Assembly (NCBI GenBank): GCA_009746045.1
Contig: RPFO01000059.1
Span: forward strand, 1,805,716 to 1,869,715
Origin: Mesostigma viride
Lineage: Eukaryota > Streptophyta > Mesostigmatophyceae > Mesostigmatales > Mesostigmataceae
Direction of reading: 5' to 3'
Length of the DNA: 64,000 nucleotides
Part shown: in pieces, positions 20,187-63,406 of the stretch
How the letters are laid out: each line of letters opens with the position of its first letter
Numbering within the stretch: position 1 is the stretch's first letter
Program-made: the position numbers and the translations under genes
The notes under the pieces: generated by a model
Databases searched by the model: none
Told to the model about the DNA's origin: nothing
What the model saw: only the letters and a program-made list of their open reading frames with translations

Positions 20187-20187
20187 C

Positions 20188-20200
20188 TGGTTATCGGAGG
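20188..20200 (+). promoter_or_regulatory. Gyp-1 primer-binding site
   Basis: TGGTTATCGGAGG starts one base after the LTR, as expected for a tRNA primer 3' end (…CCA). Gyp-2 (TGGTATCGGAGG) and Gyp-3 (TGGTTCCGGAGG) have related sites. Confidence 0.7.
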
Positions 20201-20935: not shown

Positions 20936-21274
20936 ATGCCACGACGTAAAATAAACAAGGGTGGACAGTCTGGATTTCCTTACTACGCAGTAGCTCACGA
21001 CGGGGATAAGGGTAGACCCGCTATATTCTACAGCTGGAAGACTTGTGAGGAACACATTAAAGATAAGATATTGTCCCAAGGCTCTAGTGCTAAGTGGAAA
21101 GGGTTTGATAACATCGCAGATGCAGATAGGTTTGTTAGGGAATACATGCCATTGCCTGAGGGGATGCACATCACACGTGAATGCTCCAAGACACCCACGC
21201 TCAGCAGCCAGGGGGAGGGAACCGCAGTTACAGTTACCTTCTCTCAGTTGACCATTGGCCCTAGCAAACAGTAG
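20936..21274 (+). CDS. Gyp-1 ORF0: viroplasmin/RNase H1-type hybrid-binding protein
   Basis: 112 residues from ATG at 20936. Residues about 14-70 (FPYYAVAHDGDKG, FYSWKTCEEHI, KWKGF, DADRFVREYM) fit the pattern of the small domain at the N-terminus of eukaryotic RNase H1 and in caulimovirus protein VI (YYAV..G...GI...W..C......G....KF.....A..F). In RNase H1 this domain binds RNA/DNA hybrids; here it may bind replication intermediates, which is inference. Gyp-3 (52572-52964) and Gyp-2 (55844-56279, broken) have an ORF in the same place. It lies 127 bases before gag in a different frame. Confidence 0.7.
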   Translation: MPRRKINKGGQSGFPYYAVAHDGDKGRPAIFYSWKTCEEHIKDKILSQGSSAKWKGFDNIADADRFVREYMPLPEGMHITRECSKTPTLSSQGEGTAVTVTFSQLTIGPSKQ

Positions 21275-21401
21275 AGGATACTATTACTAGGAAGCAATAC
21301 TAGGTTCTATATCTATAGATCCATAGCACGTGGTTGCTCTTTCTCTCTCTCTTCTTCCTGGGGAGGTGATGCCTGCTGTGTAAGGTACCGGTACGAGCAC
21401 C

Positions 21402-26500: not shown

Positions 26501-27777
26501 GGGCACGTAAGCACTTCTACTGGCCAGGGATGAAGGAGTATATCGAGACGTATGTGCGCCAGTGCCCCTCGTGTCAGATCATGAAGTCCAGGAACACGGG
26601 CTCTCAGGCCGTCCCTAAGACGCTGCCGGATCCTATGGGTCCTTGGGATTCTATCATGATGGACTTCATCGGCCCGTTCAAGAAGACGAAGAACGGCAAC
26701 AGCATGGTCTTGGTGTTTGTGGACCGCCTGACGCGCATGTGTCACCTGGCCCCGTGTCCGGTCGACCTCACAGCGGAGGAGTGCGCCAAGATATACCTGA
26801 CGCACGTGTTTCGGTTTCACGGGCTCAGCCGGCAGTTCATCTCTGACCGCGACAAGCTCTTCACGGCCAAATTCTGGCAGGAGTTCTTCGAGCAACTGGG
26901 CACCAAGGTGTCGCTGGGCACGGCCTACCACAGCTCGTCGTCGCACCTGGTGGAGCGGTTGAACCGCACGGTGCAAGAGACCATGCGACACTACACCGAC
27001 ACGGTGGGCAGCAATTGGGAAGAACTTCTGGGCTTGGTGGAGTTTTCCCTGAACAATGCCCCCCAGGCCGCCCATGGGTTCACCCCCTTTTTCCTCAACT
27101 CCGGCCGACACCCTCTCACACCGCTCGACTTGCTTGGGAGCCACGAACTGGGAGAGGATCAGGTCAAGCTGGATACCCTGCAAGGGGTCGAGCGGTTGCT
27201 GCAGCGGATGCACCAAGCGCATAACAGCGCGGTTCAGGGCTATCGCGCAGCGGCAGCGCGGTATCTGGAGAGGACAGCCGGCAAGCGGGATCACAGGGCG
27301 CCGTCCATCGAGGTGGGCGATTGGGTCCTGGTTGAGGGCCCGCAGATCGGGCGATTTTCGCACAAGGTGGAGAAGGAGCTGAAGACTAAGCTCCGACCCA
27401 TGTTCCTGGGACCCTACAAGGTCCTCACCAAGTTCGATGATGTCATGTTCCAGGTGGACATTCCAGTGTCATGGAACCTCACGTCCAACCGTTTCCACCG
27501 TGACCAGCTCAAGTTGTATCACCAGAACACCATTCAGGGTAGGGTCAATCCCCCAGCCCCACTGGAGTTCAATCCGGATACGGGGGAACAGGAGGACGAG
27601 GTGGCCGCAATCGTGGGTCACCGGGATGTCAAACGGGGACGAGGGGTCCAGCGACAATATCGGGTGCGATGGCGATTCGCACAACACGAGTCTGAGGACT
27701 CCTGGCGCACCGCTACCGAGTTAGCGGGGTGCGCCCGCTTACTAGAAGCATACAAGAAGACGCACCAGTTGCGTTAG
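26464..27777 (+). CDS. pol: Gyp-1 pol part 2: integrase with C-terminal chromodomain
   Basis: After a frameshift near 26467 the ORF holds the second zinc pair (CPSCQ), the integrase core with D (MDFIGPF), D (SDRDKLF) and E (VERLNRT), the GPY/F-type region (LRPMFLGPYKVL) and a C-terminal chromodomain (AAIVGHRDVKRGRG, QYRVRWRF, ... WRTATEL, CARLLEAY). Chromodomains of this group of gypsy elements direct integration to marked chromatin. It ends at 27777. It is otherwise intact over 430 codons and collinear with Gyp-2 and Gyp-3. Confidence 0.88.
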   Translation: MGGHQGSHRLLPRARKHFYWPGMKEYIETYVRQCPSCQIMKSRNTGSQAVPKTLPDPMGPWDSIMMDFIGPFKKTKNGNSMVLVFVDRLTRMCHLAPCPVDLTAEECAKIYLTHVFRFHGLSRQFISDRDKLFTAKFWQEFFEQLGTKVSLGTAYHSSSSHLVERLNRTVQETMRHYTDTVGSNWEELLGLVEFSLNNAPQAAHGFTPFFLNSGRHPLTPLDLLGSHELGEDQVKLDTLQGVERLLQRMHQAHNSAVQGYRAAAARYLERTAGKRDHRAPSIEVGDWVLVEGPQIGRFSHKVEKELKTKLRPMFLGPYKVLTKFDDVMFQVDIPVSWNLTSNRFHRDQLKLYHQNTIQGRVNPPAPLEFNPDTGEQEDEVAAIVGHRDVKRGRGVQRQYRVRWRFAQHESEDSWRTATELAGCARLLEAYKKTHQLR

Positions 27778-27991
27778 CAGACCACAGCCGGTAGGGTGTA
27801 GGGTGAGGGTGGTGCGTGAGCCAGGTATTTGGTACGCGTCGACTAACGCCCTGACATCTTGTGTGTGGGCTGTGCAGGGGGACGCCGCGGAGGCGCTTCC
27901 CAGAGACCAGACTCCCGTCGGCGCCGTGGAGGCTGCTGACGCAGGATTCCGGGTTGCAGATGGGGAGTCCAGTGAGGGGGATTTGGTCGAC

Positions 27992-30365
27992 ATGGATATA
28001 CCCGACGATCCGGAGGTCCCAGAACCGGAAGTGGGGGTAAGGACGCAGATAGCTCGTGGAGAGCCTGCGGTCCGAAGGGATGCACCAGGGGCCGGGGGCT
28101 CGAGAGACGGTGGCGGACAGATGGGGCCCTCCTCTAGTCGCGAGCGCCGGCAAGAAACCTCGTCAAGGCCGGGAGCACCGGACGCGCGTACGTTGGAGCT
28201 GGTAAAGGAGCTGCACGAGGAGACGTTCAATCCCCGGGTGTTCTTGCGAGACTACGGTCGGGAGGGGGAAGCCCTGGTGGAACGACGACGGCGTCGTCGT
28301 AACCAAATGTCGTCGCATCTCCGCGCTGATTCTATCATGGCGCGGGTCGGCCCTGTGCAGATGGAGACTTTTCGGGGGTTCGTGCGGCGCAACGTGAGGT
28401 TCCGGATCGAGACCCGCACGGCTGCGCGCAACGGTGTGGTGGTCGGGACCGACTGGGAAACACATGAGCGGGAATGTGCCTGTCACGGGTGCATGAACAC
28501 GCTGGAAGCGGGTCTGGCATTCCCACGGCTCCTTCTCCTCTTACTTCCACCCCCAGTGCGGAAGCTGCTGGGATACCACTTCCCCCGGTATCTTCCACCA
28601 GAGGGGGCGCTACAGGGTGAAAATTGCCTGCGAGAAGGGCAGCCGGTATTCGTTGCGGCAGGCTCTGGATCGCATCGTGGCGATGGATGATGAGGACCAG
28701 GATGATGGGAGTGAGGGGTATGACTCCGGTTCCGACGACGACCATCCTCCACACCCTCCCTCTCGTTCCCCCCCGCGGGATCCGCCTTCTCGGGGTTCCC
28801 AGGGGAGCGGCGGAAGAAGCCGTCCTGCGCCTCGTTCTGAGGCGCCACCGCCGGCGACGGGCTGGGGGCGACCTTCAGGGCGCGAGACGCGGAGTCTTCC
28901 GAGGGCTACCGGATGGGGTGGGGGCAGCCAAGCCGCTCCTCGACGTGTTCCGGAGTGGCCGGCACGTCGTCGCTCGCCATCTCCGCCCTCCCGTTCGCGT
29001 TCCCACTCGGACTCCGGGACTGATGTACGCCCCGCTCGCCACGCGTCGCCACCACCTCGCCGACTAGAGGATCGGCAATGGGAGCGCACGTGGGGGTCGG
29101 CGGTGGAGTTGGAGCAAGAGCGAGAGAATCGGCGACGGCGCACGGATCCAACAGAGACCGCGGTGGCCAGGGCCGAACGGCCGGCTAGAGAGGAGCCGAT
29201 TGATGAGGTTCCCGCTAACAACCCGCCCGAGACGGGCCAAGAAGAGACTACCTTCCATGTCTCCCTGGAGCCTCGCTCCCGAGTGGAAGAGGTCCCATCG
29301 GAGCCCCACTTCCTGGTTTCCTTGGAGCCTCGTCACCGGCCTGCCCAGGACGGATCGTCGATGTCACGTCCTGCGGAGGGACCGAGCTTACCTAGTACCG
29401 TACAGAATGCCGCGGAGGGTCCTAGTGTGGCGGGTGTCATGGTGCCGGCGGAACCCGTGGTTACCCTTGAGACGCTCGTGGCAGCGGTGCAATCAGGGCA
29501 GGGTCTCATGCAGCGGATGCTGGACCAGCTCGGGCGCCAGGGCGATCACTCAGTCGCCACCTCAGTAGGCTACGAGGCCGCTTCCCGGGCAGCCTCACAC
29601 GAGGAGTGGTCGCTGGGGGACTTCATACGAACCATTCCGGGAAGGACCGTAAGACACGGTGGGCCGGGGCCTCGAACGGAGAAGTTGTGTGTGGTGTTCG
29701 AGGGACCCTCGTTCCCGGTCCCTCCTGGTATGCACCTGCCAGCCCCTTTGGTTTTTCAAGCGGGCCCTTGGTGCGCGGTTGACCGTGGTGCTTACTGGGA
29801 ACAACTAGAGATCACCTTCTTCCCACAGGCGCCGCTGCCCTTGCCGCAACCTGACGACCTTCGTTTTCCCCGGACGGTGGGCCACACGGTGCGGTTCGGT
29901 ACCGAGGATTGGTGGGATTGGAGGTATCAGGTGGATGGGGTGGGGCACGTGGTTACGCCGCCCAAGGTGGCCCCGGCGGAAGGGCGTGCCTTCCTGGAAC
30001 GGGTGGTGCCGGACATTGTAGGGGCCCCTAGGGCGACCATCCTTGAGGATCACGTGCGCACCGAGGTATTTATGATGGGGGTGAAGTTTGTTCGTGATCA
30101 CCGCTGTGGGGTGGCGGATTGGTTGGCGCTGACCCTTCTCTTTACCCACCCCCAGTATCTCGCTGGGTTCCTGGCCATGTGGCCCCGGGGCACGTGGGTG
30201 GAGCTGTCCCGGTTGGGTCGGCAGAAGACGTCCCCATATCAGATCGCCTTCGAGGTGGACCTATGTGCGCATCCAGGGGTGATGACTCATATTATGACCC
30301 CCGTGGGGCGACGGGCTCTCCTTGAGGCCCAGCAGCTGCGGCGGACTACTAGCGGCGGACGCTAG
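27992..30365 (+). pseudogene. Gyp-1 ORF3: large unknown protein after pol (one frameshift)
   Basis: The ORF is open from just after pol; the first in-frame ATG is at 27992 (MDIPDDPEV). The N-terminal part has a Cys/His group (HERECACHGCMN) and FPRYLPPEG. A frameshift near 28617 leads to a disordered Ser/Pro/Arg-rich middle, a short helical block (LVAAVQSGQGLMQRMLDQL) and a folded C-terminal domain (ADWLALTLLFTHPQYLAGFL). Blocks line up with ORF3 of Gyp-2 and Gyp-3 (IRDIFPWLPAEG; FLDWARGQVVLTQHRYYWAFL). No signal peptide or clear membrane anchor is seen, so an envelope role is not supported. Function unknown. Confidence 0.6.
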
Positions 30366-32366
30366 AGTAAATAGTTCAGTTTCGGGATGGATAGCGGAGT
30401 CCAATCCCCAAAGTTTTGGCTACTACGTCAGTGTCCAAAAGCCTGCAAAAAGTCCTAAATTTAGGACGCTGGGGAATGCGTATTTAATCATGTAAACAGT
30501 AACATTTGACCCTGCCATTTGTGCCACTGAGAAATAATATAGTTTTTTAATTTCTATCAAAGACCTAGGTTCAAATAACGACGTTTAGTACCAAAACTGG
30601 CCCTGCCCCATGGGAGACCTCGAACGAAAAAAATGGCCCAAAATTGAAACTAGGACTTTTTAGGACCACCATGTATATCACCCATCACCACGCCACCCAC
30701 ACAGTCCCATGAGCTTCTTACCAATCCTCAGGGCCCCACGGGACCCTACGCGGCCTTGGGGAGGTGGGGCAGCGTATAACAAGGCCGTACCGTGCTGTGG
30801 CTGCACGTATATATACGCGTGCCTAACGGTGTCACAGATGGGGCAGATCATGCAATATAAGGTTGTATGGTTGCTGAGGTTGCCTGGCTTGAACATGACC
30901 CACCCCTTACGGCAAACTCTCTCCAAGCATATACCATAGCTTGTTTAATGTCACGGGCATGCTGGCCACCACCCAGGAAGGAGAGGACACCACATTTGTA
31001 TGGCAACTTACACAGGATAGCAGCCAGATGAAGTTGTTAAAGGGCACTGTCCAACATGCCACACTTTGCATGCATTCTAGGGGGGGGGGGAGCTGTAAAA
31101 GCATCACATATAGGCAGCATAAGAACAGCTAGAACAACTGCAAGCAATGGGCCCATGGCTGATAATGAACGCAACCGTAACATAGCTGGGAAGCATGCGT
31201 AACTTGGCAGCAGCGAACAAGGAAGCTTGCGACGATAGAAGGTACATGCCGTAAACCAACTACGTAAGCCATGTACATGCACAGAAACTGTCCTGTCTTT
31301 CAGGCATAGCCGGCTGACACTTACTGCTACGACTACGCTACCCCTTACACCTAACCACAGAGAGAACCCGGCACAAACCTGCTTGTTACGTCGCCACGTC
31401 CAGGTGGATGCATTAAGAATCGCGGATATCCGCAGCCAGCCAGCTTTCCGGCACAAGAACGCAGCCAAACTTACAAAATGGTTCGAAAGTAACGTAAGAC
31501 ACGCCGGAGCATTGTTCTAGGCCCAAGAGAGATCAAAAGACAAGTCCTCTCACGTGCGCTCGCTACCCAGCCTTGACGTTCTGTAAAATGGTCGACAGTA
31601 AACTTCGGGCAAGAACACCCAGGCCCGGGCGCTCCCTTGTCAGATATACCGTTTCCAAACTCTATACTACGATTAAAATCAAGCGCAAAAACTGCCTGGC
31701 CTGCTGCGGGCAACGTTTCCTCACGCACTGACATGTTTGTGCTCAAAATCGACCGTCCGGGCGCAGGCGATCTGTGACCTACTCATGTTGAGCAGCCGTG
31801 CTACACATGCAAACGCAAATAATTTCGTAACCAAATTAAGACCCTTTAAGCATAAGTACCAAGCTTTCGTTCTTGCTACTGGGCGCCCAAAACGATAAGC
31901 TCACGTGAAAATGCCGCCCATATTTGTCAGGTCGCCATATCCGCCGCACATCATTCCCGCACCCACTTTTTTGGCCCAAAATCTCTGTATTTTTGGTCGA
32001 GGTACGTACATTCCCGCGCATCTACCCGGTACCCGGTACGGAATCCGGGTACGATGTACCAGTATCACGGGTAGAGTACATCTTGGAGGTCACGGTCCAC
32101 TAGGGGTATGGACCATATAGTGACCCCCCCTGCCCAGTACCTCAGTTATAGTGACCTTAGGACTTTTTAGGACGAAGTCCTAAATTTAGGACGGCCGGCT
32201 GATTAACATCAGGGTTGGGCATGTGTATCAACCTCTAGAGGAACTGGCATTACTGATCTGCGGGTGAACCGAGGTTGGGACATAGTACTCTTATAGTAGT
32301 CTTGTTTTGTGATCCTATTCTACCTTTGTACGGTAGGGACTACCGACCCCCGTGGGGGGGGAGGAG
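30366..32366 (+). other. Gyp-1 3' UTR, unusually long, with palindromic repeats
   Basis: Two kilobases without a convincing ORF, against about 370 bases in Gyp-2 and Gyp-3. A perfect 16-base palindrome GTCCTAAATTTAGGAC occurs near both ends (about 30446 and 32178), and AGGACTTTTTAGGAC occurs at about 30653 and 32159; these suggest a decayed insertion of about 1.75 kb. A hairpin lies at about 32091-32126. A G-rich polypurine tract (32353-32366) ends at the LTR. Confidence 0.5.
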
Positions 32367-32949
32367 TGTTACGTCCCGGCCCTTTAGGACGGACGTAACA
32401 ATGGAATAAATTACTAAGGCCTTGTGGCCGTTGTACTAAGTTTTAGGGACGTTGGTTATTGTGTGAATTGGACTAGTTATCTTGGTCCTAGGTTGCCCTT
32501 TTAGGAGCCGGTGCTGTGGCGCCGCGCCAGTTCTGAGTCTGTCCGAAGTACTAGACGTGGATCCTGTAGTTGAGGGTCGATGTCGGCCCGGATCCTACGT
32601 GGAATGATTGGCTTGGATTGTTCCAGGGAAATTGGCGTGTATCTGCGCCGCAATCAACCTAGGTTAAATTGGTCCGAGGACGAGAGTCTCGTCCTCTTGG
32701 TTTGATGAATGATAAGTGCGAATACGCCTACACATTGAACCCGGGGCAATTATCCATTTGTATTTGGTGTTGCTAGCCATTATAAGTGTGTACTAATTAG
32801 CTTGGCATCAAGCCGTGATGCCAGATATCTCACGACTCACGTCGTGAAGCGCAACCTACTTTAGGCTACCTTGAATTATTCCTAATTCCGGCAAGAAGGG
32901 TCTTTCGCTACGTAGCTCAGGCTAGGTGTGTCTGGGCTGGGACGTAACA
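32367..32949 (+). repeat. Gyp-1 3' LTR
   Basis: 583 bases; differs from the 5' LTR by loss of 4 bases near its start. The CTCGG duplication follows. Confidence 0.92.
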
Positions 32950-32954
32950 CTCGG

Positions 32955-33185
32955 TTCCACCACCACGCCGGGTGGTGTAGGGTTAGCCAGCACCAAGCCT
33001 GGTGGGAGGTTCCCCTAACTGCCTGGAACAGAGTCCTTGCCGGGGGGGGACGGCACTGGGCAGGACACACAGAGTAAACAAATCAGTACCAAGGACCAAG
33101 AACGACCAATCAACTGGCCAGAATCTGAGGGCGACTCTATATACCGGAGGGACAACACCCTCAGGTCGGGCCTAGAGCCCTCTGT
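32955..33185 (-). other. Gyp-2 3' UTR, proximal part
   Basis: Continues the Gyp-2 3' UTR beyond the Gyp-1 insertion and matches the Gyp-3 3' UTR at 43993-44224 (shared CAGCACCAAGCCTGGTGG). No gene. Confidence 0.75.
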
Positions 33186-43281: not shown

Positions 43282-43858
43282 TGTTACGCCGCGGATATCT
43301 ACCTCCACCTCTACCTCTAATGGGCCTGATACTACCTAAACTGGTCAGGCCTCCTCTACTTAACCCTCTGGCGAAAGACGAACGTGACGGAGCTGATCTC
43401 AATGCATTAACGTAAGTGTTACTATAATACGCCATACAACCATTTATCAAAACCCGTTTACTCCAGGAATAGAGGAAGGAAACACAACTACACTGCCGTG
43501 ACCCAAGCCTAAATGTGTCAATTCACTTAACACACGCCGAGTGCACACACAAGGGGTAGAACGCGCATAAATGGTCACCAACGGTCCAACACGTGCGCTC
43601 GGGCCGACATGGCCCTCGCCTACAGATGCACGCTGGTCCACTAAATCTACTGATGCACGCTGGTCCACTACATTCTGCCACAGGATCAGGACCACTAATA
43701 AAGTACGCGGCGCGGCGCCCAACGGCACCCAATGTACCACAGTACTGTTACGAGGACAATAATGTCCCGGTAGGAGCCTAAACGTAAACCTAGGGACAAC
43801 CGAGGCAAAAGACCTAATTTACGTCCGTAACTACAACGAATTGTTACGCGACGTAACA
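43282..43858 (-). repeat. Gyp-3 3' LTR
   Basis: 577 bases; on the minus strand it follows a G-rich polypurine tract (43859-43874). Contains a short internal direct repeat GATGCACGCTGGTCCACTA near 43624-43671. Confidence 0.9.
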
Positions 43859-44224
43859 CCTCCCCCCCCACAAAGGTAGGGAGCCCTCTCCCTACGTACA
43901 GGGAGGAAAACAAGGGGTAGGAAACCTAATGCACCCAGCACACACTAACACAGTCAGCAGCCATCCAAGATACAAGGCACCAATAGTTCACACGGTCTCC
44001 ACCACCACGCCTGGAGGTGTAGGGTTAGCCAGCACCAAGCCTGGTGGTAGGTTCCCCTAACTGCCTGGAACGGAGTCCTTGCCGGGGGGAACGGCACTGG
44101 GCAGGACACACAGAGTAAACCAATCAGCCAAGGACCAAGAACGACCAGTCAACTGGCCAGAACATGAGGGCGACTCTACATACCGGAGGGACAACACCCT
44201 CAGGTCGGGCCTAAGGCCCTCTAT
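43859..44224 (-). other. Gyp-3 3' UTR
   Basis: Polypurine tract and non-coding sequence, matching the two pieces of the Gyp-2 3' UTR. No gene. Confidence 0.75.
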
Positions 44225-46503
44225 CTAATGGCCATCCGTCTGGTAGGTACCACGGGAGGCCAGCAGGACATCCAGGTAGGCCTGGTAATGGGCCACATCC
44301 TCAACATTGTCATGCCTATCTACGGTGAGGAAAACATCGGCCCACACGCCGTCAGGAAAAAGGCCCAGAAAGGCCCAGTAATACCTATGCTGAGTAAGAA
44401 CGACCTGGCCCCGGGCCCAGTCCAGGAAACCGCAGGCAAAGAGGCGTAGGAAAGGCTCTACCGCGATCAGGCAGAGAGCCCGAAGGAGCAGGCGATGATA
44501 CCGGATCCGAGGGCGCATACCCGTCGGGAAAAACAGATCTACCAGGGGCTCCACGTTGGACGGCCACAACCGGATGTGCCACCGACGCGTACACTGGCGC
44601 GACCCGAATGTCTCTAGGTAGTCGCTGGCCCGAGGAGGAGGGTGACCGCGGGAGTCTAGACCCTGGCCCGGGAGGGGCGCCGGACGCCGGGCATCCCACT
44701 CGAGGATGGGCTGGAGGACCGTGGTGTACGTAACACCCGGCACCGCAGGAAACTCTACCGTAAGGGCATCCGAAGCCATAATGCCCAGAGGCGGAGGGTA
44801 AGCCCACTGGAACCCACCGTAGGTGTCCAAGTCGTTGTGGCGCCTAGCCCAGCGATACAGAACGCGCCGAACCAGGATCTCACCCTGGAACACAGGATCA
44901 GCTAAAATAACCATGTCGAAAGGAGGCCGATCAGTCTCAATGGGTAGGCCACGATCCCGAGGCGCCCGACACACCTGGGAAAACCCGTAGGACATGGGCG
45001 AGATGGCAAGCTCGGCGGAGGCGCGCGGCAGGTCACACTGGCGGCAGGCGAGTGCGGACATACCACATCCAGGCACGGGCGTGTCGCGCGACTCCGGCGT
45101 CGCATGCACCACAGAAGGAGCCCTGTCCCGATCACCCTGGGACAACTCCCGGAGGGAGTCGGAAGCGCGGGTAGCGCGAGGATCCTGGCCGGTGGACCGA
45201 ACAACCGCAGCCAAGGACAGAGAGGCCGAAGGGGCAGGGGCCGAAGCAGGGGCAGGAGCCGACACCGACGCAGGTGACACTGGTACAGCAGACGGTCGCG
45301 CCGGACCCGAAGCCAGGGGGCCGTGACGGACCCGCCACCGAAGCTGGCGCGCCGGTCTCGGTGGCCGGTGCACCCTCAGGCCACATGTTAAAAATGGGGC
45401 CCGTAGGGACAGGCAGTCCTGCATAAGATTGACTACCATCCAGGCTCCAGTCAGGAACCGGAATCCTCTGCGGGGGACCACCCTCCCAAAGCCTGGGCAG
45501 TCCGCTAGTGTCGCCAAAGAAGCCCCGCGACGGCTGCGACTGAGCTGGTGGAGGCTCGGAAGCAGCGACAGCGGGCGCGGTCACAGGGGCAGGGGACTCG
45601 CGCGTAGGCGCAGGTACAGCGGTCACAGGCGCAGAGGCAGCAGGAGTCGCAGCAGCCGCCGGAACCACAGCGACCGCGGGCGCAGCGGGGGCGCGGGCGA
45701 AGCCGTAGTCGCCGGGGCAACAGAAGGGGTAGGAGGCGCGGATCCAGCTGGCGTAGCCGGGACCTGCGCCTGGGCCGCCAGGAAGGCCCCAAACGCCGTG
45801 GTCAGGGACTGGATCTGAGCCTGCATAGCCGAGACCGTCGCCGAAAGAGGATCAGGCAAACCCGAAGGGGTAGGCTCCACTGCAACACCCCGGGTCGACC
45901 GAGGGGACGACGGGACCGGAGAGGGAGGAACAGACGCCGAGGAGGCGGACGCAGCGCTCGAGGCAGAATAATCTGGAGTATAATGTACCTCGGCTGGGGC
46001 GCCCGAAGGGGCAGGACCATCAACCGCTAGTCCCGCCGCCTGATCAGCTATCTCCATGAATTCTACGGCCCGTAAAAGGTCGCAGGGGTTCTCATCTACC
46101 TCAGCATCACCCTCAGCCGGAAGCCAAGGAAACACCTCCCGTAGGCAGGTACGGCCCACAGGGGTAGAGAGGTAGGAGAACACACGGCAGCACCGGAGAA
46201 CCGCATCTATCTGTTCCAAGGCGGGACAGCGGAACCACACCCCAACAAACAGTGTCCGGCATCGTCGAACCCGTGCAGGACAAGCTGGTGCGGCTCATTA
46301 GGGGAAGGACCATACCACGTGACCCCGAAGAGGGCCGCCCTGACTAAGCTCGCATGTTGGGCCTGAAGGGCCGGCTGCACAACGCCACCCCGGTAACATG
46401 ATCGCGACACCCAGCGGCCCGGAAGGGCCTCGAAATACAGCTCAGGGTCCGGTAGGGGCAGGGACGGCAGCGGGCTCTCAGCCGGAGGGGTAGGCTCTGT
46501 CAT
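44225..46503 (-). pseudogene. Gyp-3 ORF3: conserved unknown protein after pol (frameshifted)
   Basis: Start MTEPTPPAES at 46503, 77 bases after the pol stop. N-terminal domain LPGRWVSRSCYRG, HGFDDAGHCLLGC, RCPALEQIDAVL, LREVFPWLPAEG; helical AMQAQIQSLTTAFGAF; Pro/Ala-rich middle; C-terminal domain DRPPFDMVILADP, RRWHIRLWPSNVEP, FLDWARGQVVLTQHRYYW. Frame changes near 46225, 45640 and 45340. High similarity to Gyp-2 at both ends with a fast-changing middle indicates selection on two folded domains. No signal peptide. Function unknown. Confidence 0.65.
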
Positions 46504-46579
46504 GACGGCTGCGGAGGGGAGGGGACAACCAACCACCCGTCGACAGCAGACATAACATAAGAGAGGAGAAGGCCTACGA

Positions 46580-48180
46580 CTAGAGCTTGTGCAGGGTTTT
46601 ATATTCCTGCAGCAGGCGACTACACCCATCTAGCTCACTCTCCGTATACCAAACCTTATCTACTTCACTACGAGCATACATCCACTTCACTTTATACTGA
46701 CGCTGGGTACCGCGGCCCTTTTTGATATCTCGATGGGCCACGATGCTTTCTACTTCGTCTTCTACTTCCCCAGTGTCAGGATTATGCTCTAAAGGGGCAG
46801 GCGCTAACTCCCTGCCAGCGAACGTACTAGGGTGGTACAGTTTAAGCTGGCTCCTATGGAAGGTGTTTGAATGCGTTTGCCAAGAGGTAGGGATATCGAC
46901 TTTATACAAGAAATTTCCTACCCTAGACAACACATGGAAGGGTCCTAAGAAGGCAGGCCTAAGTTTGACCTTCAGTTCTGCTTCAAACTTATGAGCAAAA
47001 CGGCCAACACGGGGGCCTTCTACTAATACTAGATCTCCTACTTCTATCTCAGGTGCTCGTCTATCTAAGGAGGCACGCAACCTAGCAAGGTACTTAGCCT
47101 GAGCTTTTTGATACCCTGAGATCGCGTGGTCATGAGCAGTTTTCATTCTATCTAGTAAGGACTGTACACCTTCTACAGTATCTCGGGACACATCATCCTT
47201 GTCCCGTAGAGGACTAGCTAAGAGAGAGGTAGGGGTAAGGGGCTGTCTCCCAGTATCTAAGAAGAAGGGCGTATATCCATGCGCAGCTTGGGGACAATTG
47301 TTGAGGGAGAACTCTACCAAACATAAATAATCCTCCCAATCACTACCCGAGCCATTAACATAGTGCCTAAGCGCTTCTTCTACTACTCTATTAAGACGCT
47401 CTACTAAATGAGAGGAGGAGGAGTGGTAGGCAGTACCGTAGGTAACCTTGGTACCGATGGCAGCGAAAAACTGCTGCCAAAAATCTGAGGTAAATAATTT
47501 ATCCTTATCACTAATAAACTGCCTACTCAATCCATGATATCTATATACATTATTGAGGTATAGGCGTGCGCAATCACGTGCGGTGAGTTCTAAAGGACAC
47601 GGCACAAGATGGCACATACGAGTAAAACGATCTATGAACACAAGGATTTGGGCATTGCCCCTATCATTCTTTCTAAAAGGTCCTACAAAATCCATCATGA
47701 TAGAATCCCAAGGCATGATAGGGTCAGGCAAGGTCCTAGGTTCTGCTATCTGTCCTACATTATTGGGTTTCATTTCCTGGCAAGATTGACAAGTTCTAAC
47801 ATACTCATCCACATCCTTATAAAGGGAAGGCCAGTAATAAGAGCGGGCTACTAGGTCCCGTACCCGTTTACCACCCTGTGAGCAGCTAAGTCATGCAACT
47901 CAAAGAGCAAGGAGGAGCGACAGATAGGAGGGACATACAGGCGCCATTGAGGGGGAGAATCTGCTATCTGCACATATAAAAACCCACCTACAAATTTACA
48001 AGGGTGCTTGCCTAATTGTTGGGGATGTGCAGCAATGGCAGCTAATGCTTCCGGCTCAGTGGCCGTAAATCTACTAATAAGGCGTTCAAGATCAGAGGTA
48101 GGCATCGCTACAGAAGTATCCAGAACAGGTTTAAAGAGATCTCCTACCGCCTTGCCGAAGAGAAGGGGAGGTCCTAGGGG
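46580..48180 (-). pseudogene. pol: Gyp-3 pol part 2: integrase and chromodomain (one frameshift)
   Basis: The N-terminal zinc part (SLLFELHDLAAH) is separated by a one-base loss near 47875 from CQSCQ, MDFVGPF, SDKDKLF, VERLNR and the chromodomain (ESIVAHRDIKKGRGTQRQY ... LLQEYKTLHKL). Another small frame change at about 48180 separates it from RNase H. Collinear with Gyp-2. Confidence 0.87.
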
Positions 48181-50655
48181 ACTACGTTTTCATAAGACTT
48201 TCCTGACCTAGTCGCTATATGGCTAAGCGGTATAGAAATTTTATTTTTCCCCTCCCCCCCCACCGAGGCCACAGGAAGGGCCTCACACGGGAGAGAGAGT
48301 CCTACGTGAGAAAGGAGATCAGGCATGCGAACAGCTGTATGAAAGAGGTAGGCATAGGAATCATCATCAGGTAGTTCACCATAAGGGGTTACACCCATAG
48401 TAGTAGGAACTAGAGTAGTATTGAGAACATCAAGGTCCTCGAAGAAGGAATAGTCTGCACGACGAGAGAGTGCATCTGGTACTATGTTATCTACACCCTT
48501 GACATACTGAAGTTTAAAAGGGGAAAACTGTGCTAAAAATTCCATCCAGCGCGCTTGCCGAGGGGTAAGGTTGGGTTGGGAGAGAAGATGGGTAAGGGGA
48601 CGATGATCCGTTTGGATAACTAACCTATAAGGATCTAGCTCACAGGGTTCATTCAGGCAGACATCAAATTGAGCACCTTTAAGGAAGTGCTGCCACGCGT
48701 GGCAACAATACACCACAGCTAAGAGTTCCTGCTGGTGGACGGGATAGTTACGCTCCGCAGGGAGCATTGTCCTAGAGATATACTCAATTGGCTGTAAGCC
48801 CTGACCCTGATCCTGGAGAAGGACACCACCTATAGCTACTTTACTAGCATCTGTAGCCACAACAAAGGGTTTAGTAGTATCCGGTAGGATGAGTACAGGA
48901 GGGGAAAGGAGTAGGGATTTTAGGCACTGAAAAGCAGACTGACACTCACTACTCCAAACAAAGGGGATATCCTTCTTTAATAAATGATTAATAGGGGCTG
49001 CTATAGTTGCGAAACGCGGGATAAAACGCCTATAGTAAGAAGCAATTCCTAGGAAACTACGTACACCTTTAACGTCGGTAGGAGTAGGCCATTCCTGAAT
49101 TGACTTAGTTTTATCCGGGTCGGTAGCGACCCCGGCATCTGACAGAACGTGCCCTAAAAATGGGACACTCCTACCCGAACGCACTTTAGCACGGCGCGCC
49201 CACAAAGAATTTTCAGCCATTATTTCTAATACTTTCTTTAAATCACGTAGGTGCGTTTCAAAATCAGGAGAGTAAATAAGAATATCATCTAAGTAAGCTT
49301 GAGCACAAGAACGGTCATGCTCAGATAAAGAAACAGAGGAGAAGGAGGGATCCTTTAGATCAGAGGACACCTGAGGAAGATGAGAATTTCCCATAACAGG
49401 TCTAAGCACTTCATTCATTAACATTTGAAAAGAGGCAGGCGAGTTACAGAGTCCCATAGCCGCTACTCTAAACTGGTAATGACCAAAAGGGGTAGCAAAG
49501 GCGGTTTTATGGCAATCCTCAGGAGCTATCCGCAACTGCCAAAAACCATCCGCACAATCCAGTACTGTGAAACAAGTGGAACCTTTAACCTTATTAAATA
49601 TATCATCAATACGAGGTAGAGGGTATTTAGATTTCACAGTAATATCATTCAACTTCCTATAATCAGTAACTAGGCGAAACTTGCCATTTGGCTTAGGAAC
49701 TAACAGGACACCAGCTGAGTAGGGGGAGTTACTAGGCTCTATCAATCCTGCTTCTAATAATGACACTAAAATCTGTTTTAGTTCCTTTAACTCGGTAGGG
49801 CCCATTCTATACATCGGAGAGTGCGTAGGAACTGCACCGTCCTTGATAACTACACGGTGTAAAACAGAACGAGGAGGAGGATAAGAAGGAGTCTTTTCTT
49901 CAAATACTTTTGAGGAATCTATCACAGCCATGTATCTTACTATTTCATTTTCAGTAAATCCTACTCCTATTGTATCCACTGTATTTACATCTATATCCAC
50001 ACTATTATTAGTGATAGGTATCTCTTGTACTTCTAACTGAAGGAACATACATAATAGGTATCCATTTTGCTTTAATTCAGAACGTAATTCGTCATTTGAC
50101 ATTAATACTTCAGGTATAGGTCTTACAGGAGGATCAACAGGTGTAGGAGGAGTAATATCTACCAAGGATAAATTTTCCAATCTATAATGACGTTCAGGTA
50201 CCCAGTAAGAGCTATCTGGAAACCAAATGACCATGGTATCATAATTAATAGTAATCTTATTATCCTGGTGCCAATCTAATCCTAGTAATACATCAGCGGT
50301 AGTGATAGGGCCTATAGTGGCCGTCAGGTTGACAGTACGTCCTTGTATAACCATGGGAAGGGACACCGTACCCGGGGAATGACTGGTGCGACCATCAGCA
50401 TAATGAACAGTAACGGGTTTGGTGTGAGGGGTAGGGACTAGTCCTAAACGTCTAACTAGGGCCTCGCTCACAAAGGAGCTAGCCGCACCGCTATCTACCA
50501 ACACAGAGACATTCAAGAGTTCATCAGCATGCAAGAAGGGGTCTACAACAGTGTGAGGGACGGTTAAACCACCATTCAAGAACATAAGAGGACGCACACG
50601 TAGTGGTAGGGAAGATTCAGCTCCTACAGAGGTTATAAAAACAGGCAGGCAAAAA
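48174..50655 (-). CDS. pol: Gyp-3 pol part 1: protease, RT, RNase H
   Basis: About 800 intact codons. Protease NVSVLVDSGAASSFV and LLGLDWHQD; RT LVPKPNGKFRLVTDYRKLN, FTVLDCADGFWQ, AYLDDILIYS; connection VPFLGHVLSDAGVATDPDK (the segment missing in Gyp-2); RNase H ATDASKVAIGG, HQQELLAVV, QTDHRPLTH, DALSRRADY. The frame ends with a stop at ENVVP where homologues continue, owing to a small indel. Upstream, the -1 frame from gag hits a stop near 50655, probably from an extra base in an A/T run. Confidence 0.88.
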
Positions 50656-50709
50656 TTTTATCTGGGGTACTATCTAAGGACCTGTCCAGGTTACCCCCGG
50701 CTGACAGGC

Positions 50710-52448
50710 CTACTGTTCCCCCTCCCCCCCCAAATCCATAGGAACTAACCCCGAAGAAGACCCTGGCGAAAAAGCCACTGCTGGAGGGTCACGAGGGAGC
50801 GAAGAGGGTGCGGGAGCCTGATTATCATAGGGGAACCCTGGGGATCCTGTCTGCACAGCATTCAGCCTACTAGGGGTAGCTGAAGGAATGCGTCCTGAAG
50901 TAGGACGAATAGGAGCACGCTGAGGGGTACGAGGAGGGCGAGCGTCGGGATGAGGGGGAGCACCCGAAAGGAACTTGGGGCACTCACGTTTAAGATGACC
51001 TACTTCCTTACAATGATAGCATGTGATATGAGAGACATCAAGGGCTGAAAGGTCAGTAACACAGATATCTAATTCTTCTACATAGGAGTTCTCCTCCTCA
51101 GGGGTAAGGATAATATTATTAATACGGGAACGGGTAGGAAGAGAAGGGGTGGTGAAGAAATCTGCTACACGCAAGAGATGCTGGCGCACATGCTTGAGGG
51201 GCAGATCAGTAAAACGGTAGGCAGAGAACTGGCGCTTGACTTCACGTAATAAGGGTCTACTGAGGCCTTGGAGGAAGCGAGCACGTACTTCTGCACCCGA
51301 CAAATCCCTAATTCGTACCATCTGAGCATCAAACTCTTTCATATACTCCTTAAATGATTTAGTACCCTGCTGCAAGGTACCAAAGGCTAATCTATCCTGC
51401 CAATCTGAATCAGGAGGGACTAAATGGTTCTCTAAACGCTTAAACAATTCTGCTACAGAGTTAGGGTAGGCATGAGAGGCCAAAGACTCACACTGAATGA
51501 GGTTAGCAAGCTCAGGAGTAATACAGGTTGTGAGATAGTGAGGAACTAATACAGCATCAGAAAGACGCCATCTATTATGATTCTGCCACGACTCCGTGTT
51601 CTGGGTAAGCAACATAATAAAGGTGAAAAACTGTTGAGGGGTAGACTTGACATCCAGCTTGGGAAGGTTAGCAAAGAGGGGAAGAGCAGGGGGCTTAGGG
51701 GGATTAGAAGAGTCAGTTTTTCCCATAGGGCCACTATCTTCCACTGCTACATAAGCGGGATAGAAGGAAGGAAGAGGAAAAGTCTTGGGTAGGGGTCTAG
51801 AGGGGCCACCGTTTCAGGCTGGTGCCCATAAGAGAAGGGGACAGTATATTGCTCACGAAGAGAGGAATAGGCAAAATGATCATAATTTCTGTCATCTAAG
51901 GGCATGGTGCTGAAATCACTATTAACTTCTAAATCAGCCACACGGGTAGGGACCTGGGCTGCCTCATAGGCCGTCTCAGGGTAGGACCAGGAAGCAGGTG
52001 GGTAAAAGGGAACTGCACTAGGGCGCCCAGAAGGACCGACAGGGGCAGAGGCACGACCCGTGTTAAGAGCAGGCATGGAAGGAACAGGGTGGGAAGGAGG
52101 CCTAAAAACATTGTTAGTTAGTGAGGACCTGCTGGAGGGTTGAGCCAAGGTTGCAGGAGGGGCAGGGGCCTGGTTCAGGGTAAGGGAAGGGTCATCACTA
52201 AATCTGACTTGCATACGTTGACGTTGTTCATAGGTAGGAGGGGTAAGTGAGGGACGACGGCGACCATCAGCAAGAGGAGAAGGAGGTGAGGCACGAAGAT
52301 TACCTTGAGGAGTGAGATGGTGCACCGTTTCAAGTGAGTCCCGTCGGTTACCACGATTGTTGTTATGGTTGTTATTATTATTATTATTATTACTCATAGT
52401 AGGAGTATTGGTAGGTATAGGCGACATGTTACCACCCACTGGATCCAT
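50710..52448 (-). pseudogene. gag: Gyp-3 gag (one frameshift)
   Basis: Starts MDPVGGNMSPIP at 52448 with an Asn run (NNNNNNNN). The N-terminal disordered part is joined by a frame change near 51770 to the capsid-type part (KSTPQQFFTFIMLL, LIQCESLASHAYP, LVPPDSDWQDRL, GAEVRARFLQGL) and one CCHC knuckle (CYHCKEVGHLKREC). It ends GLVPMDLGGEGEQ at a TAG beside a slippery-like GGGGGAAC. Confidence 0.82.
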
Positions 52449-52571
52449 TTTTGTTTAAGTAAATGATCAAAAATCTAACTGAAAGCAACAAGGATAAAGG
52501 ACAAGGCCTAATATAAGGCAAGGAAAGAAAAGGAAAAGATTTTAATGGCTTAAAAGAAGGAACAATTTAAA

Positions 52572-52964
52572 TCAATCCTTTTTAACAACAGTAATGGATA
52601 GGGAACCGAATTCTAAGGTGAGAGGAGTATCTAAGCTAGATGAGGATGCAGCCCTCTTAGGGGGAGACGAAGGAGGGGTAGCAAAATCTAGAGCTTCTAC
52701 AGGAGGGCGACCATGAGGAGTAGAACGTACGTGTAGGCCTAGATCTGATACGCTATGGTCTATAAGGAATTGTTGAGCTTCCTCGAAGGTAACAAATTTC
52801 TTATACCTAATTACATTATATGTACGGTTTTGCACTATCTTCCTAGCATCTGACCAAGAGAGGAAAATGGCTGACCATTGAGGGGTAATAACTACGTAAT
52901 ACTTAGCTAAACTATTATCACTAGATGAATGGGAAGGCGCAGTAAAAACACGACGTTGACTCAT
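52572..52964 (-). CDS. Gyp-3 ORF0: viroplasmin/RNase H1-type hybrid-binding protein
   Basis: 130 codons from ATG at 52964. Residues about 21-70 (AKYYVVITPQWSAIFLSW, DARKIVQNRTY, RYKKFVTFEEAQQFLIDH) follow the hybrid-binding domain pattern: YYVV start, Trp, K-F-x-T-x-x-E-A-x-x-F. The C-terminal tail is Ser/Pro-rich and ends LTLEFGSLSITVVKKD, a tail nearly identical in the broken Gyp-2 copy. It lies 123 bases before gag. A role binding element RNA/DNA hybrids is inferred from family knowledge. Confidence 0.7.
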   Translation of the reverse strand: MSQRRVFTAPSHSSSDNSLAKYYVVITPQWSAIFLSWSDARKIVQNRTYNVIRYKKFVTFEEAQQFLIDHSVSDLGLHVRSTPHGRPPVEALDFATPPSSPPKRAASSSSLDTPLTLEFGSLSITVVKKD

Positions 52965-53496
52965 GATAACTCACCTGGCGTGTCTTGTGATGTCAAGCTA
53001 GACGAGGTAGGGGTAGGCGACTTAGCTTGACGATCTGGATCACCGAAAGAAGAAGGAGGGCGGGAGTTTCCAGCTCTCGTCCTAAGTCAGCGGCCGGATA
53101 TCCAGCGCTCGTCCTAACACAGCGCCCCGTAACTCTGCGGGTGCGGCCGTCTAATAAAGCAGCAGCACAAGGAAAAAGGTGTAGGTACTGCGACGCTAAT
53201 CGTCTCCGAACAGTAATACTCCCCTATCTAAGACAGGAAACAACCGTAAGCAGGAAAACAAGGCGAAGGACAGGCTAACTACGAAAGGATTTATCCGCTG
53301 TGAGCAGGTCTAGCTTCTAGGTAGAGCGTGTCCCGAAACGGGCAGCACGACTCTCCTAGCTTGAAGGCGACCCGCCCATTACCTATCAAGGAAGTGTCGA
53401 CTTCTTGTTCCTGGACGCGGAAGGGGTCTTGAAAAGGTGTATGTGGCAAGGGATAGTCGTCTCGTTCACTACCTACTGAAGTTCCTCCGGAACCAT
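52965..53496 (-). other. Gyp-3 leader with primer-binding site
   Basis: The PBS TGGTTCCGGAGG is at 53484-53495, one base inside the LTR. The remainder is non-coding and partly matches the Gyp-2 leader (GAGCAGGTCTA...GGCGACCCGCCC). Confidence 0.7.
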
Positions 53497-54069
53497 TGTT
53501 ACGCCGCGGATATCTACCTCCACCTCTACCTCTAATGGGCCTGATACTACCTAAACTGGTCAGGCCTCCTCTACTTAACCCTCTGGCGAAAGACGAACGT
53601 GACGGAGCTGATCTCAATGCATTAACGTAAGTGTTACTATAATACGCCATACAACCATTTATCAAAACCCGTTTACTCCAGGAATAGAGGAAGGAAACAC
53701 AACTACACTGCCGTGACCCAAGCCTAAATGTGTCAATTCACTTAACACACGCCGAGTGCACACACAAGGGGTAGAACGCGCATAAATGGTCACCAACGGT
53801 CCAACACGCTCGGGCCGACATGGCCCTCGCCTACAGATGCACGCTGGTCCACTAAATCTACTGATGCACGCTGGTCCACTACATTCTGCCACAGGATCAG
53901 GACCACTAATAAAGTACGCGGCGCGGCGCCCAACGGCACCCAATGTACCACAGTACTGTTACGAGGACAATAATGTCCCGGTAGGAGCCTAAACGTAAAC
54001 CTAGGGACAACCGAGGCAAAAGACCTAATTTACGTCCGTAACTACAACGAATTGTTACGCGACGTAACA
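53497..54069 (-). repeat. Gyp-3 5' LTR
   Basis: 573 bases, same ends as 43282-43858; lacks 4 bases (near 53808) present in the 3' LTR. Confidence 0.9.
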
Positions 54070-56783: not shown

Positions 56784-57078
56784 GCGTCAGTTACGTTAAA
56801 TAGTGACGGAACCTTTTGCCGCCTGAGGCAAATCGGTCCGTAACACTATTTTGCCCGGAATAACCACTTCCGAGCACCCAAGTTAATTCGGCCGAATTAA
56901 CTTGGGTGCTCGGAAGTGGTTATTCCGGGCAAAATAGTGTTACGGACCGATTTGCCTCAGGCGGCAAAAGGTTCCGTCACTATTTAACGTAACTAAAACC
57001 TGGCCTCGTGGAGGGGGGACGAAGAGCCCGAGACATCCGCCTAGGCCGCTGAGCACGCACCACTAAATGCGCCGGAGC

Positions 57079-57126
57079 TGCCTCAGTGAGGATTCGAACC
57101 CCTGACCTCCAAGGTGCACGGGTTTT
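57079..57126 (-). other. tRNA 3'-half-like sequence (Pal-1 left spacer)
   Basis: Reverse complement of 57333-57380. On the minus strand: AAAACCC at the palindrome border, a T-arm-like AGGGGTTCGAATCCTC, then CTGAGGCA as acceptor strand. No 5' half. Confidence 0.5.
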
Positions 57127-57332
57127 AGTTACGTTAAATAGTGACGGAACCTTTTGCCGCCTGAGGCAAATCGGTCCGTAACACTATTTTGCCCGGAATA
57201 ACCACTTCCGAGCACCCAAGTTAATTCGGCCGAATTAACTTGGGTGCTCGGAAGTGGTTATTCCGGGCAAAATAGTGTTACGGACCGATTTGCCTCAGGC
57301 GGCAAAAGGTTCCGTCACTATTTAACGTAACT

Positions 57333-57380
57333 AAAACCCGTGCACCTTGGAGGTCAGGGGTTCGAATCCTCACTGAGGCA
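57333..57380 (+). other. tRNA 3'-half-like sequence (Pal-1 right spacer)
   Basis: Starts exactly after the palindrome's CGTAACT with AAAACCCGTG, then GGGGTTCGAATCCTC and CTGAGGCA. AARA at the start fits positions 35-38 of a tRNA anticodon loop (as in Leu-NAA or Phe-GAA); the identity is uncertain. Confidence 0.5.
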
Positions 57381-57683
57381 GCTCCGGCGCATTTAGTGGT
57401 GCGTGCTCAGCGGCCTAGGCGGATGTCTCGGGCTCTTCGTCCCCCCTCCACGAGGCCAGGTTTTAGTTACGTTAAATAGTGACGGAACCTTTTGCCGCCT
57501 GAGGCAAATCGGTCCGTAACACTATTTTGCCCGGAATAACCACTTCCGAGCACCCAAGTTAATTCGGCCGAATTAACTTGGGTGCTCGGAAGTGGTTATT
57601 CCGGGCAAAATAGTGTTACGGACCGATTTGCCTCAGGCGGCAAAAGGTTCCGTCACTATTTAACGTAACTGCGTCTACCTAAA

Positions 57684-58274: not shown

Positions 58275-59454
58275 AAGATATTTACTGCCAAAGTTGGACA
58301 AAAGACGATCATTTTCAGGCAAGGGAAATCCCCTTAGTAGTTTACCCCTGCAGGGAGGGTTCTAAAAAATTATTCTGGGGTTGGAAAATGTCAATAGATA
58401 GTGCCACCATGCTTTCCTTGGGTCAGACCGCACGGATAGCCCATCTGACCTATATAATGCGCTCACTTACGTGTGTGGGTTACGCGCGCGTAAGCAGCCA
58501 TCCATGAAATGCCACACACTTATGCATTGTATACAGCCACATAGGACTGTGAAAAGTGCTGGGAAACAAAGAAGTGCTAAACCAGCACTAACGGAATGGC
58601 ATCCTCCAAAGAAACACCACAAACTGAGCAGATTTGTTTGGGGCTAATAGCACTCATACAGCAGGCATGGAAACCTGCTGCAAGAGGCACTGATACACTC
58701 GTGTAAAATGGATGTATAAACGACAGATTCCCGTGCAAACGACATGCAAACACGTTGCCGTACCTGGCTTGATCACGACCTTTCCGGGTTCTGCTGGCCG
58801 GGACCCTCATATCTCACACTGGCTAATGCTTTCCAGGCATAGGCCGCCTTAGCCGCATAATGCATGCATCCGACATGATTACCAGGTTGATGTTCTGTGC
58901 AAAGATGACCTATAAACGCATCCGAATTCACAGGGACGCTGCTGCGGATGTCCCGTACCAAAACTGGGTGCTCGGGCTGGCGCAGACTGCCGGGCCATAA
59001 GAAGAAAATCGAAATATGGCATGCCATTACTCATCTGGTACTGACGACCAAGAAAGCAGTAATGTCCTACCTGTATTTTACCAATGCTATACATCTGGCC
59101 ACCCCTGACCTACGAAAATCACGCATCATCATTCTGAGCAACATTCTGAACCATTACAAGCCGCGAGATGCAAAATTTCCTTGATAACGGCACGCTAGCA
59201 GCCATATCTCGTTACGCGCGCGCGCGAGTGAAAATTTCCCGCCAAAGTCACGTGATACTGTCTCAATACACGTTGTATTTACCAGGCTATGGCGAATATT
59301 ACCCCCAAACCTATGCATCACCTTCGTCCTTAAGTGTTCCCAGACCCACCGGACCACTGACATCCGTCACAGGTGGCGCGGCGCTCCGGGAATTGAGCGC
59401 CGCGCCACCGGGGGTCAAACAGGGCGATATATCGCCCTGTTTCCGGACTATGGG
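58275..59454. other. PB-1 right part: no gene, terminal hairpins
   Basis: About 1.2 kb with no ORF that resembles a protein family. The right end has a hairpin with 14-bp stem (59372-59409), a perfect 26-base palindrome around CGATATATCG (59417-59442) and the terminal CCGGACTATGGG. A CG alternation (CGCGCGCGCG) lies near 59217. Confidence 0.6.
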
Positions 59455-59983
59455 TTAAGTTCACGTGAACGTGGCGCGGAATCGATACCGGCGAGTGGTT
59501 TTCGCCGGATAAATAGTGACGGACCTAATTGCCCAAGTGGCAAAAAGGTTCCGTCACTATTTATAATAACTAAGACCTCGTAAGTCGGGGGTTCGAATCC
59601 CTGTGGTGACACGGGTATTTCCGAATACCGGAAGGAATTGATACCAGAAGGCCAAACGAAAGTGCCAGAAGGAAAAAATGCCCGGTTGGAATATCGTTAA
59701 GGCGAGATTCGGTACTGCAGTAGGCATCAGCGGTACGATAGATATCGGCCCCCACACTACGACGTTTTAGTTATTATAAATAGTGACGGAACCTTTTTGC
59801 CACTTGGGCAATTAGGTCCGTCACTATTTATCCGGCGAAAACCACTCGCCGGTATCAATTCCGCGCCACGTTCACGTGAACTTAACGCGGAATAGATACC
59901 GGCGAGTGGTTTTCTCCGGATAAATAGTGACGGACCTAATCATGCCACTTGGCAAAAAGGTTCCGTCACTATTTATAATAACT
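59455..59983. repeat. Pal-2 right end: half palindrome, spacer, complete palindrome
   Basis: 59455-59571 is one arm with the centre GTTCACGTGAAC; 59572-59768 the spacer; 59769-59983 a complete near-perfect palindrome ending AATAACT. Copia-BD resumes at 59984 (CAGGGGTCTGG). Confidence 0.8.
59572..59611 (+). other. tRNA 3'-half-like sequence (Pal-2 right spacer)
   Basis: AAGACCTCGTAAGTC, then GGGGGTTCGAATCCCTG and TGGTGACA: anticodon-loop end, short variable loop, T-arm and acceptor strand. A complete tRNA is not present. Confidence 0.5.
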
Positions 59984-62774: not shown

Positions 62775-63406
62775 AGTTAAGGAAACTGTGGCTGAACTGT
62801 GGTTCAGCCTGCACTGATTAATATCTACGGAGGAAGTAGTTATATTAATCAATAGGTTTACGTTGCTGGTTATGGATACCAGCACAGAATGCACGAGGCG
62901 TGTGAGAACCGTCGCCGAAGGTGCGAGGACACAGGTGCAGGGAAAGTGGTGCTACCAAGTGGCAGCGCCCTGCTCGTTATATACTAATTGTGACGCTGCC
63001 AGTCACATCCAGATGACTGATAGGACAGATCATCTCACAATGTTGCTGTCCTTCACTCTGGACCGGCAGATCTCGACTCGTTATCCATAAATAGTCACAT
63101 CAATGTCCTGTCGCACAAGTCCTGTCACTATTTGTTACGTCTAATCAATAGCATTGAATAGACCGCAGTGTTGGAGACTAAATGTCCTATCGTACACTGT
63201 GACAAGACGCCGTATGCCACGTGTCACTTGAAGAACCACCGTAGAATCACCGAATCCAAGTAGAATGTAGTAGAACAGTATCTTGCTCATATCTCGAGCA
63301 ATACTCATAAGAATGAACCCGTTTCTGGATTGTAGTAACCAGAAGTAGAATCTCTACAAGCTAAGTAGCTTAGTAGAATAATATTGCTTGCCAGGCAATA
63401 TTAACT
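62775..63406 (-). repeat. Copia-BD 5' LTR
   Basis: 632 bases matching 7534-8167 at roughly 97-98%. Ends AGTTAAGG and ATTAACT. The outer flank is GCTAT in the Gyp-4 RT. Confidence 0.75.

Follow-up and report, generated by a model that had tools for sequence, protein, structure and literature searches.

tRNA-derived SINEs carry A and B boxes and a terminal T run and have no coding capacity, and foldback elements and MITEs are marked by long inverted repeats, hairpin potential and high copy number. Head-to-head joining of cDNA is usually regarded as an accident of reverse transcription. TRIM elements, in the excerpted text of one study, form arrays of the type TDRx_I(x-1), in which repeats outnumber spacers by one (PMC6934838), and the Cassandra TRIM is described, likewise in excerpt, as having a pol III promoter and tandem arrays (PMC7215508). 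For Penelope elements, the excerpted source reports head-to-head palindromic junctions from which self-priming was inferred, and its authors argued for an antisense template (PMC3846280).

The window, a 64-kb stretch of Mesostigma viride DNA, contains an 882-base element (56789-57670) that on self-comparison is identical to its own reverse complement at every position. The order is P-S-P-S'-P: three identical copies of a 206-bp perfect palindrome (P), built of two 103-bp arms and starting at offsets 0, 338 and 676, alternate with two 132-bp spacers (S) that are exact reverse complements of each other. The layout of three palindromes and two opposed spacers given in the original prediction was confirmed by this exact comparison, and the 5-base GCGTC duplication it had claimed borders the element as a direct repeat on both sides. 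The features are as follows.

56784-56788, no strand: target duplication GCGTC, left copy (direct repeat; a 5-bp duplication is found in 37 of 42 intact arrays)
56789-56994, no strand: P1, 206-bp perfect palindrome by self-complementarity, LTR-like terminal repeat
56995-57126, minus: S-, spacer with its tRNA-like strand directed leftward
56995-56998, minus: TTTT closing S-, possible pol III terminator by sequence, mirror of the TTTT of S+
57079-57167, minus: tRNA-like fold across P2 and S-, placed by exact symmetry from 57292-57380
57127-57332, no strand: P2, pivot palindrome between the divergent S copies, its arms alike in the window copy
57292-57380, plus: tRNA-like fold of 89 nt, its 5' part within P2 (right arm) and its 3' part within S+ (Rfam 18.3 bits, cut-off 29)
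57333-57464, plus: S+, spacer with ends AAAACC...GGTTTT
57359-57369, plus: B box GGTTCGAATCC, its letters identical in family 2
57461-57464, plus: TTTT closing S+, possible pol III terminator
57465-57670, no strand: P3, terminal palindrome by self-complementarity
57671-57675, no strand: target duplication GCGTC, right copy (direct repeat)

Elsewhere in the 64 kb no gapless perfect palindrome has arms longer than 13 bp, and chance is therefore excluded as the source of the symmetry. Ten matches to the 25-bp end (up to three mismatches) were found in the window against none expected, six within the element and four in a related family, family 2. Exact mirror symmetry is apparently peculiar to the window copy, as none was seen when the variant lists of the other arrays were read by eye.

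The host genome (439,911,974 bases in 2,243 contigs) was searched for further copies. The 22-bp centre of P occurred at 1,339 sites (reversed control, 0), and a P end of one type, with GTTTT before it, gave 245 matches (control, 0). More than 1,000 copies of the P centre in one long-read genome bear on the cellular tolerance of long palindromes. We fetched 48 loci besides the window, one of them extended, and annotated P arms and S in each. This sample was non-random: 20 loci were the best arm matches, 18 the first P-centre sites, and 10 came from the list of GTTTT-preceded P ends. Counts of arrays, polarity and arms exclude family 2, fragments below 150 bp, L108 (an allele of L106), L140 (the window again) and L141 (no copy); junction orientation was counted within the fetched arrays. 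After exclusions there were 49 arrays, 42 with both ends intact within the stretch; four of the 49 were truncated (L102, L136, L149 and L150), and in three more the stretch or contig ended inside the array.

P behaves as the terminal repeat of modular arrays, P(SP)n with n from 0 to 4. P-S-P-S-P, previously taken as the unit, is thus one form in a series running from a lone P up to arrays of five P and four S. Orders of S in the 42 intact arrays were - + in 21, a single S in nine, - + + in four, and - -, - - + and - - - + in two each, with one - + - + and one array with no S. The flanking duplication was exactly 5 bp in 37 of these, 6 bp in one (in a C run) and absent from four (L114, L134, L145 and L147). 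The 37 five-base duplications are mostly different sequences, with 64% G+C. The solo P (L125) has CCCCC on either side, but within a C-rich repeat.

For some copies, flanks joined at one copy of the duplication match uninterrupted DNA elsewhere: those of L129 match window positions 26101-25799 (90%), those of L127 window positions 44527-44797 (82%), those of L117 match L123 (97%), and those of the window copy match 53314-53505 (75%, 195 columns). Several other joined flanks match the tandem repeats that house those copies. The window element is one copy of an abundant small mobile element of this architecture, and the family appears to have been recently active. Movement as one unit, claimed earlier for the window copy, is borne out by the exact 5-bp duplications and by these uninterrupted sites in related repeats; the proposed search for P-S-P-S-P copies with 5-bp duplications at unrelated genome sites was positive. 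The L106 insertion recurs on a second contig as L108; flanks, order and arm variants all agree, and the two differ in a C run only. Because copies occur at many sites and this insertion was found again, an assembly artefact is unlikely.

L145 and L146, about 9 kb apart on the same contig, have the left flank CACAAAAGGT in common and S orders - - and - +, respectively. A common flank with differing S order, one of the two arrays having no target duplication, suggests duplication and recombination between arrays.

The spacers showed a marked polarity, a point absent from the original prediction. Of 53 neighbouring S pairs, 36 were - + (head to head), 16 had the same direction and one was + -. 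Opposite-orientation pairs were therefore head to head in 36 of 37 cases, with the tRNA-like strands diverging from a common P (p = 5.5e-10 against blind inversion, under which - + and + - are equal). The sole + - junction is in C100 (L142 with L152), which has four S in the order - + - + within an intact AAGGC duplication and looks like two head-to-head dimers in series.

Copies carry recurrent arm variants, which are mosaic among arms. The two arms of a P were identical in 11 of 33 pivots (P between - and +), in 59 of 83 terminal P and in 8 of the 16 remaining internal P; the difference between terminal P and pivots was significant (Fisher p = 0.0003; p = 0.004 in a smaller sample, which agrees), although a few "terminal" P may be internal, as some fetched stretches end within an array. 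Arms were thus unlike in 22 of 33 pivots vs 24 of 83 terminal P, differences that can also arise by later mutation or gene conversion. In L109, L127, L133, L135 and L136 the spacers on either side of the pivot are mismatched at 9 to 21 positions, and L109 switches subfamily at the exact pivot centre, its left half belonging to one subfamily and its right half to another. Hybrid pivots seem to be joins of two different copies or molecules, and such joining seems common because snap-back would leave the arms of the central P identical, yet those of two thirds of the pivots (22/33) differ. The snap-back origin first suggested for the dimer accordingly fits the exact mirror of the window copy but not the arrays with unlike pivot arms.

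Two copies of family 2 are present in the window.

59454-59983, plus: family 2 copy with a partial arm, S with a tRNA-like 3' half, and a full, imperfectly palindromic P
10414-10846, minus: second family 2 copy, 98.6% identical over 433 columns

The P of family 2 is related to that of the 882-base element (about 79% across the arm's first 80 bp), its S is different and longer, and both copies end abruptly near the P centre beside a common CCCATAGTCCGG.

The Rfam tRNA model (RF00005) aligned at full length across the P/S border of the window copy (57292-57380, 18.3 bits), of L136 (23.1 bits) and of family 2 (17.4 bits). All are below the curated cut-off of 29, and the folds are therefore read as decayed or derived tRNA-like structures. 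The fold reads outward from P into S. In the window copy, the predicted acceptor GCCTCAG in P pairs fully with CTGAGGC in S over a span of 89 nt; the family 2 acceptor has other letters (GUCACUA with UGGUGAC). The tRNA 3' half with T arm that had been described in the spacer is present as a weak match, but the fold is larger, its 5' part lying in the P arm. ARAGORN at default settings reported no tRNA; at relaxed settings a tRNA-Cys-like (GCA) fold was placed on the P/S border of a tandem construct, in two of 18 places over four constructs. A search of 901 bases of the window copy against Rfam (E up to 5) listed no tRNA; what it listed there was a beta_tmRNA fragment, which overlaps the fold and belongs to the tRNA clan. 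With E values up to 3, the diverged S of L130 had no match to tRNA.

The B box GGTTCGAATCC is shared letter for letter by the 882-base element and family 2. Scored against the A/B-box consensus, the A box matches at 11 of 11 positions in family 2 and 10 of 11 in L136; the respective distances to the downstream B box, 52 and 60 nt, are tRNA-like. At the corresponding conserved place the A box is degraded in the window copy, whose single 10/11 match is 86 nt upstream; the A-box pattern is loose, each stretch having between one and four matches of at least 10/11. Based on these box motifs, the tRNA-like fold and the terminal TTTT of S, the P/S border would be transcribed by pol III.

Other readings of the fold were rejected. 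The idea that S encodes a split tRNA with P as its intron found no support from ARAGORN at default settings or with introns allowed, and at the relaxed threshold none of the 18 places was an acceptable P-spliced tRNA. Rfam searches (E up to 5 and E up to 10) had no ribozyme family among their matches, and the miRNA matches, below cut-off, are the hairpin itself. As a primer-binding site, the tRNA piece would lie on the wrong strand.

The surroundings of the element offer a comparison with LTR retrotransposons. It lies inside a gypsy-type element (18886-58269) with a TTTGC duplication and nested insertions; the right GCGTC is 21 bp from the host LTR at 57697. The LTRs of this host are 99.8% identical, and within its 39-kb span at least two other LTR elements are nested, at about 19599-32956 and 43282-54069. 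Both have 5-bp duplications, and the former was typed from its frames alone. Copia LTRs are also present in the window.

10996-11611 and 18237-18852: Copia LTR pair (copia1)
7534-8167 and 62775-63406: Copia LTRs (copia2)

These LTRs begin AGTTA and end AACT, the non-canonical AG...CT instead of TG...CA. The copia1 LTRs read AGTTAACG...TCAACT between flanks AATAT and AATAC (one mismatch); the copia2 LTRs read AGTTAA...TTAACT, the one at 62775 being a lone LTR without a duplication. P begins AGTTACG and ends CGTAACT, and so has AG...CT in common with both Copia families, and the gypsy LTRs of the window read TGTTACG...CGTAACA. Because three gypsy-type elements also have 5-bp duplications (TTTGC, TCAGC and, by eye, CTCGG), a Copia assignment rests on the terminal bases. 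The termini and duplication point to LTR-retrotransposon integration, and the "unknown class" of the original prediction is too strong. P as a relative of the window LTRs tested was rejected, since no score against the four exceeded the best of 200 shuffles.

One of five Copia frames matched a Pfam family, RVT_2, at 29.3 bits (cut-off 31.6), and the other four matched none. The five relatives of the Copia fragment were a metagenome protein (99%), two labelled Prorocentrum lima (58% and 53%), one labelled Mesvir1 (62%) and a fifth at 61%. Among the best 120 of 365 matches, the named relatives of the gypsy fragment were mostly green algae (Chara, Haematococcus and Closterium), with one labelled as an Oxalobacteraceae MAG.

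The family is like TRIMs, as these are described in excerpt, in having a terminal repeat of 100-250 bp (P, 206 bp), a tiny gene-free inner domain (S, 132 bp), solo repeats, and arrays with one more repeat than spacers (PMC6934838). The LTR-type duplication of 4-6 bp is shared too. It is unlike them in its palindromic terminal repeat and in spacers of both orientations under strict polarity; where TRIM inner domains have the same direction, inverted neighbours here account for 37 of 53 S pairs. Before the 3' repeat, where a polypurine tract was looked for by eye, S ends CCTCCACGAGGCCAGGTTTT or CACGGGTTTT with no purine run beside P. Cassandra carries 5S RNA inside its LTR, whereas the window element has a putative tRNA-type promoter across the repeat/spacer border, its tRNA-like 3' half adjoining P on the tRNA-sense strand; the Cassandra text, in excerpt, mentions no head-to-head rule (PMC7215508), and the window family has one. 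With tRNA-derived SINEs the family shares A/B-box motifs, a T run ending S and the lack of coding sequence, but its ends are precise, its terminal repeats palindromic and its duplication fixed at 5 bp, in place of the variable duplications and A-rich or simple tail of a tRNA SINE; no A tail was noticed.

The reading we prefer, tentatively and with slightly less than even confidence, is a non-autonomous TRIM-like LTR retroelement with a palindromic LTR, a tRNA-type promoter, dimerisation of cDNA on the side of the RNA 5' end, and a borrowed integrase. We infer the transcription and dimerisation steps. A pol III RNA would start in the P arm beside the tRNA-like fold and run via S into the next P, and the reverse transcriptase of an LTR retrotransposon would copy it. 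The antisense cDNA would then carry, at its own 3' end, the palindrome of the RNA 5' side. Folding back on itself, this cDNA would give an exact head-to-head palindrome such as the window copy; pairing with a second cDNA at the palindrome, it would give a hybrid pivot. Either route would yield P-S(-)-P-S(+)-P, that is - + and not + -. An LTR-retrotransposon integrase, most likely of Copia type, may insert the dimer, and same-direction repeats may arise when units concatenate or recombine, a route already proposed for other TRIM arrays. Joining at the palindrome of antisense cDNA would explain the polarity and the unlike pivots together.

Several points count against this TRIM-like reading. Neither a primer-binding site nor a polypurine tract was identified; in the putative transcript, the tRNA-like piece is in sense orientation; transcription starting inside the arm misses the P centre, so that a whole pivot requires an extra step; unlike arms could stem from gene conversion; and one array (C100) breaks the polarity rule. 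Self-priming at the RNA 3' end (GGTTTT on AAAACC), copying the arm, predicts like arms across one S and is not favoured, because arms across one S were identical in 29 of 71 cases, whereas within a single P the two arms were identical more often (58 of 104).

We consider it doubtful that the family is a distinct kind of retroelement, in which the palindrome would act as the LTR, bear the divergent promoters and be the site of welding, and two pol III transcripts would form a head-to-head dimer as a regular step of the life cycle. Under the preferred cDNA route, head-to-head joining would account for dozens of insertions with hybrid junctions and a polarity that is nearly absolute, and template choice and strand joining could be readable from sequence. 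No palindromic-LTR element of this kind was found in the open-access literature searched by title and start of abstract.

A foldback- or MITE-like DNA transposon, with the 103-bp arm as terminal inverted repeat, P as the minimal element and P-S-P as a composite, is likewise unlikely. A DDE transposase acting in trans would move stretches between inward-facing arms, and gap repair would make the inverted copies. Every P(SP)n is indeed bounded by inverted repeats, with precise ends and a short fixed duplication, as in a DNA transposon or MITE; long inverted repeats, hairpin potential and high copy number are common to both, and a solo P with a (low-complexity) duplication exists. However, among the 40 candidates scored out of 260, the clusters of arm matches turned out to be complete or truncated P arrays, the 36:1 polarity of S is given no reason, and the terminal AG...CT is the Copia LTR signature in the window. 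We know of no transposase for the window element.

Rearrangement after insertion, in which P-S-P inserts and cruciform breakage and palindrome recombination expand or flip S, is improbable. The mosaic of variants among arms and the different orders of L145 and L146 beside a common left flank fit it, but blind flipping predicts equal numbers of head-to-head and tail-to-tail junctions, against the 36:1 found, and the 5-bp flanks are kept in 37 of 42 intact arrays. More improbable still is a hairpin-ended replicon with parvovirus-like rolling-hairpin replication, in which P would be a self-priming terminal hairpin, P-S-P-S'-P a duplex dimer with one bridging hairpin, and poor resolution of one end the source of polarity. 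The architecture equals a rolling-hairpin dimer, with a single P at the junction and, in the window copy, an exact palindrome; same-direction neighbours (16 of 53 pairs) and unlike pivot arms are nevertheless not direct products of it, and one exact 25-bp pattern had no match in viral contigs. Prokaryote genomes, scanned with 16-mers, yielded 71 isolated matches at scattered places, which we attribute to chance. A Penelope-like derivative, with pseudo-LTRs joined head to head through self-priming, is very improbable: repeat-bounded units with head-to-head palindromic junctions are shared, and such junctions are, in the excerpted source, most frequent in Adineta Penelope elements, but duplication length and end precision differ, with 8- to 10-bp duplications, or none at all, and frequent 5' truncation there (PMC3846280) against 5 bp, mostly precise ends and four truncated arrays of 49 here.

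In L134 (1932-2474), one flank is the reverse complement of the other (GGGAGGGGGGGAGGG and CCCTCCCCCCCTCCC), in place of a direct duplication.
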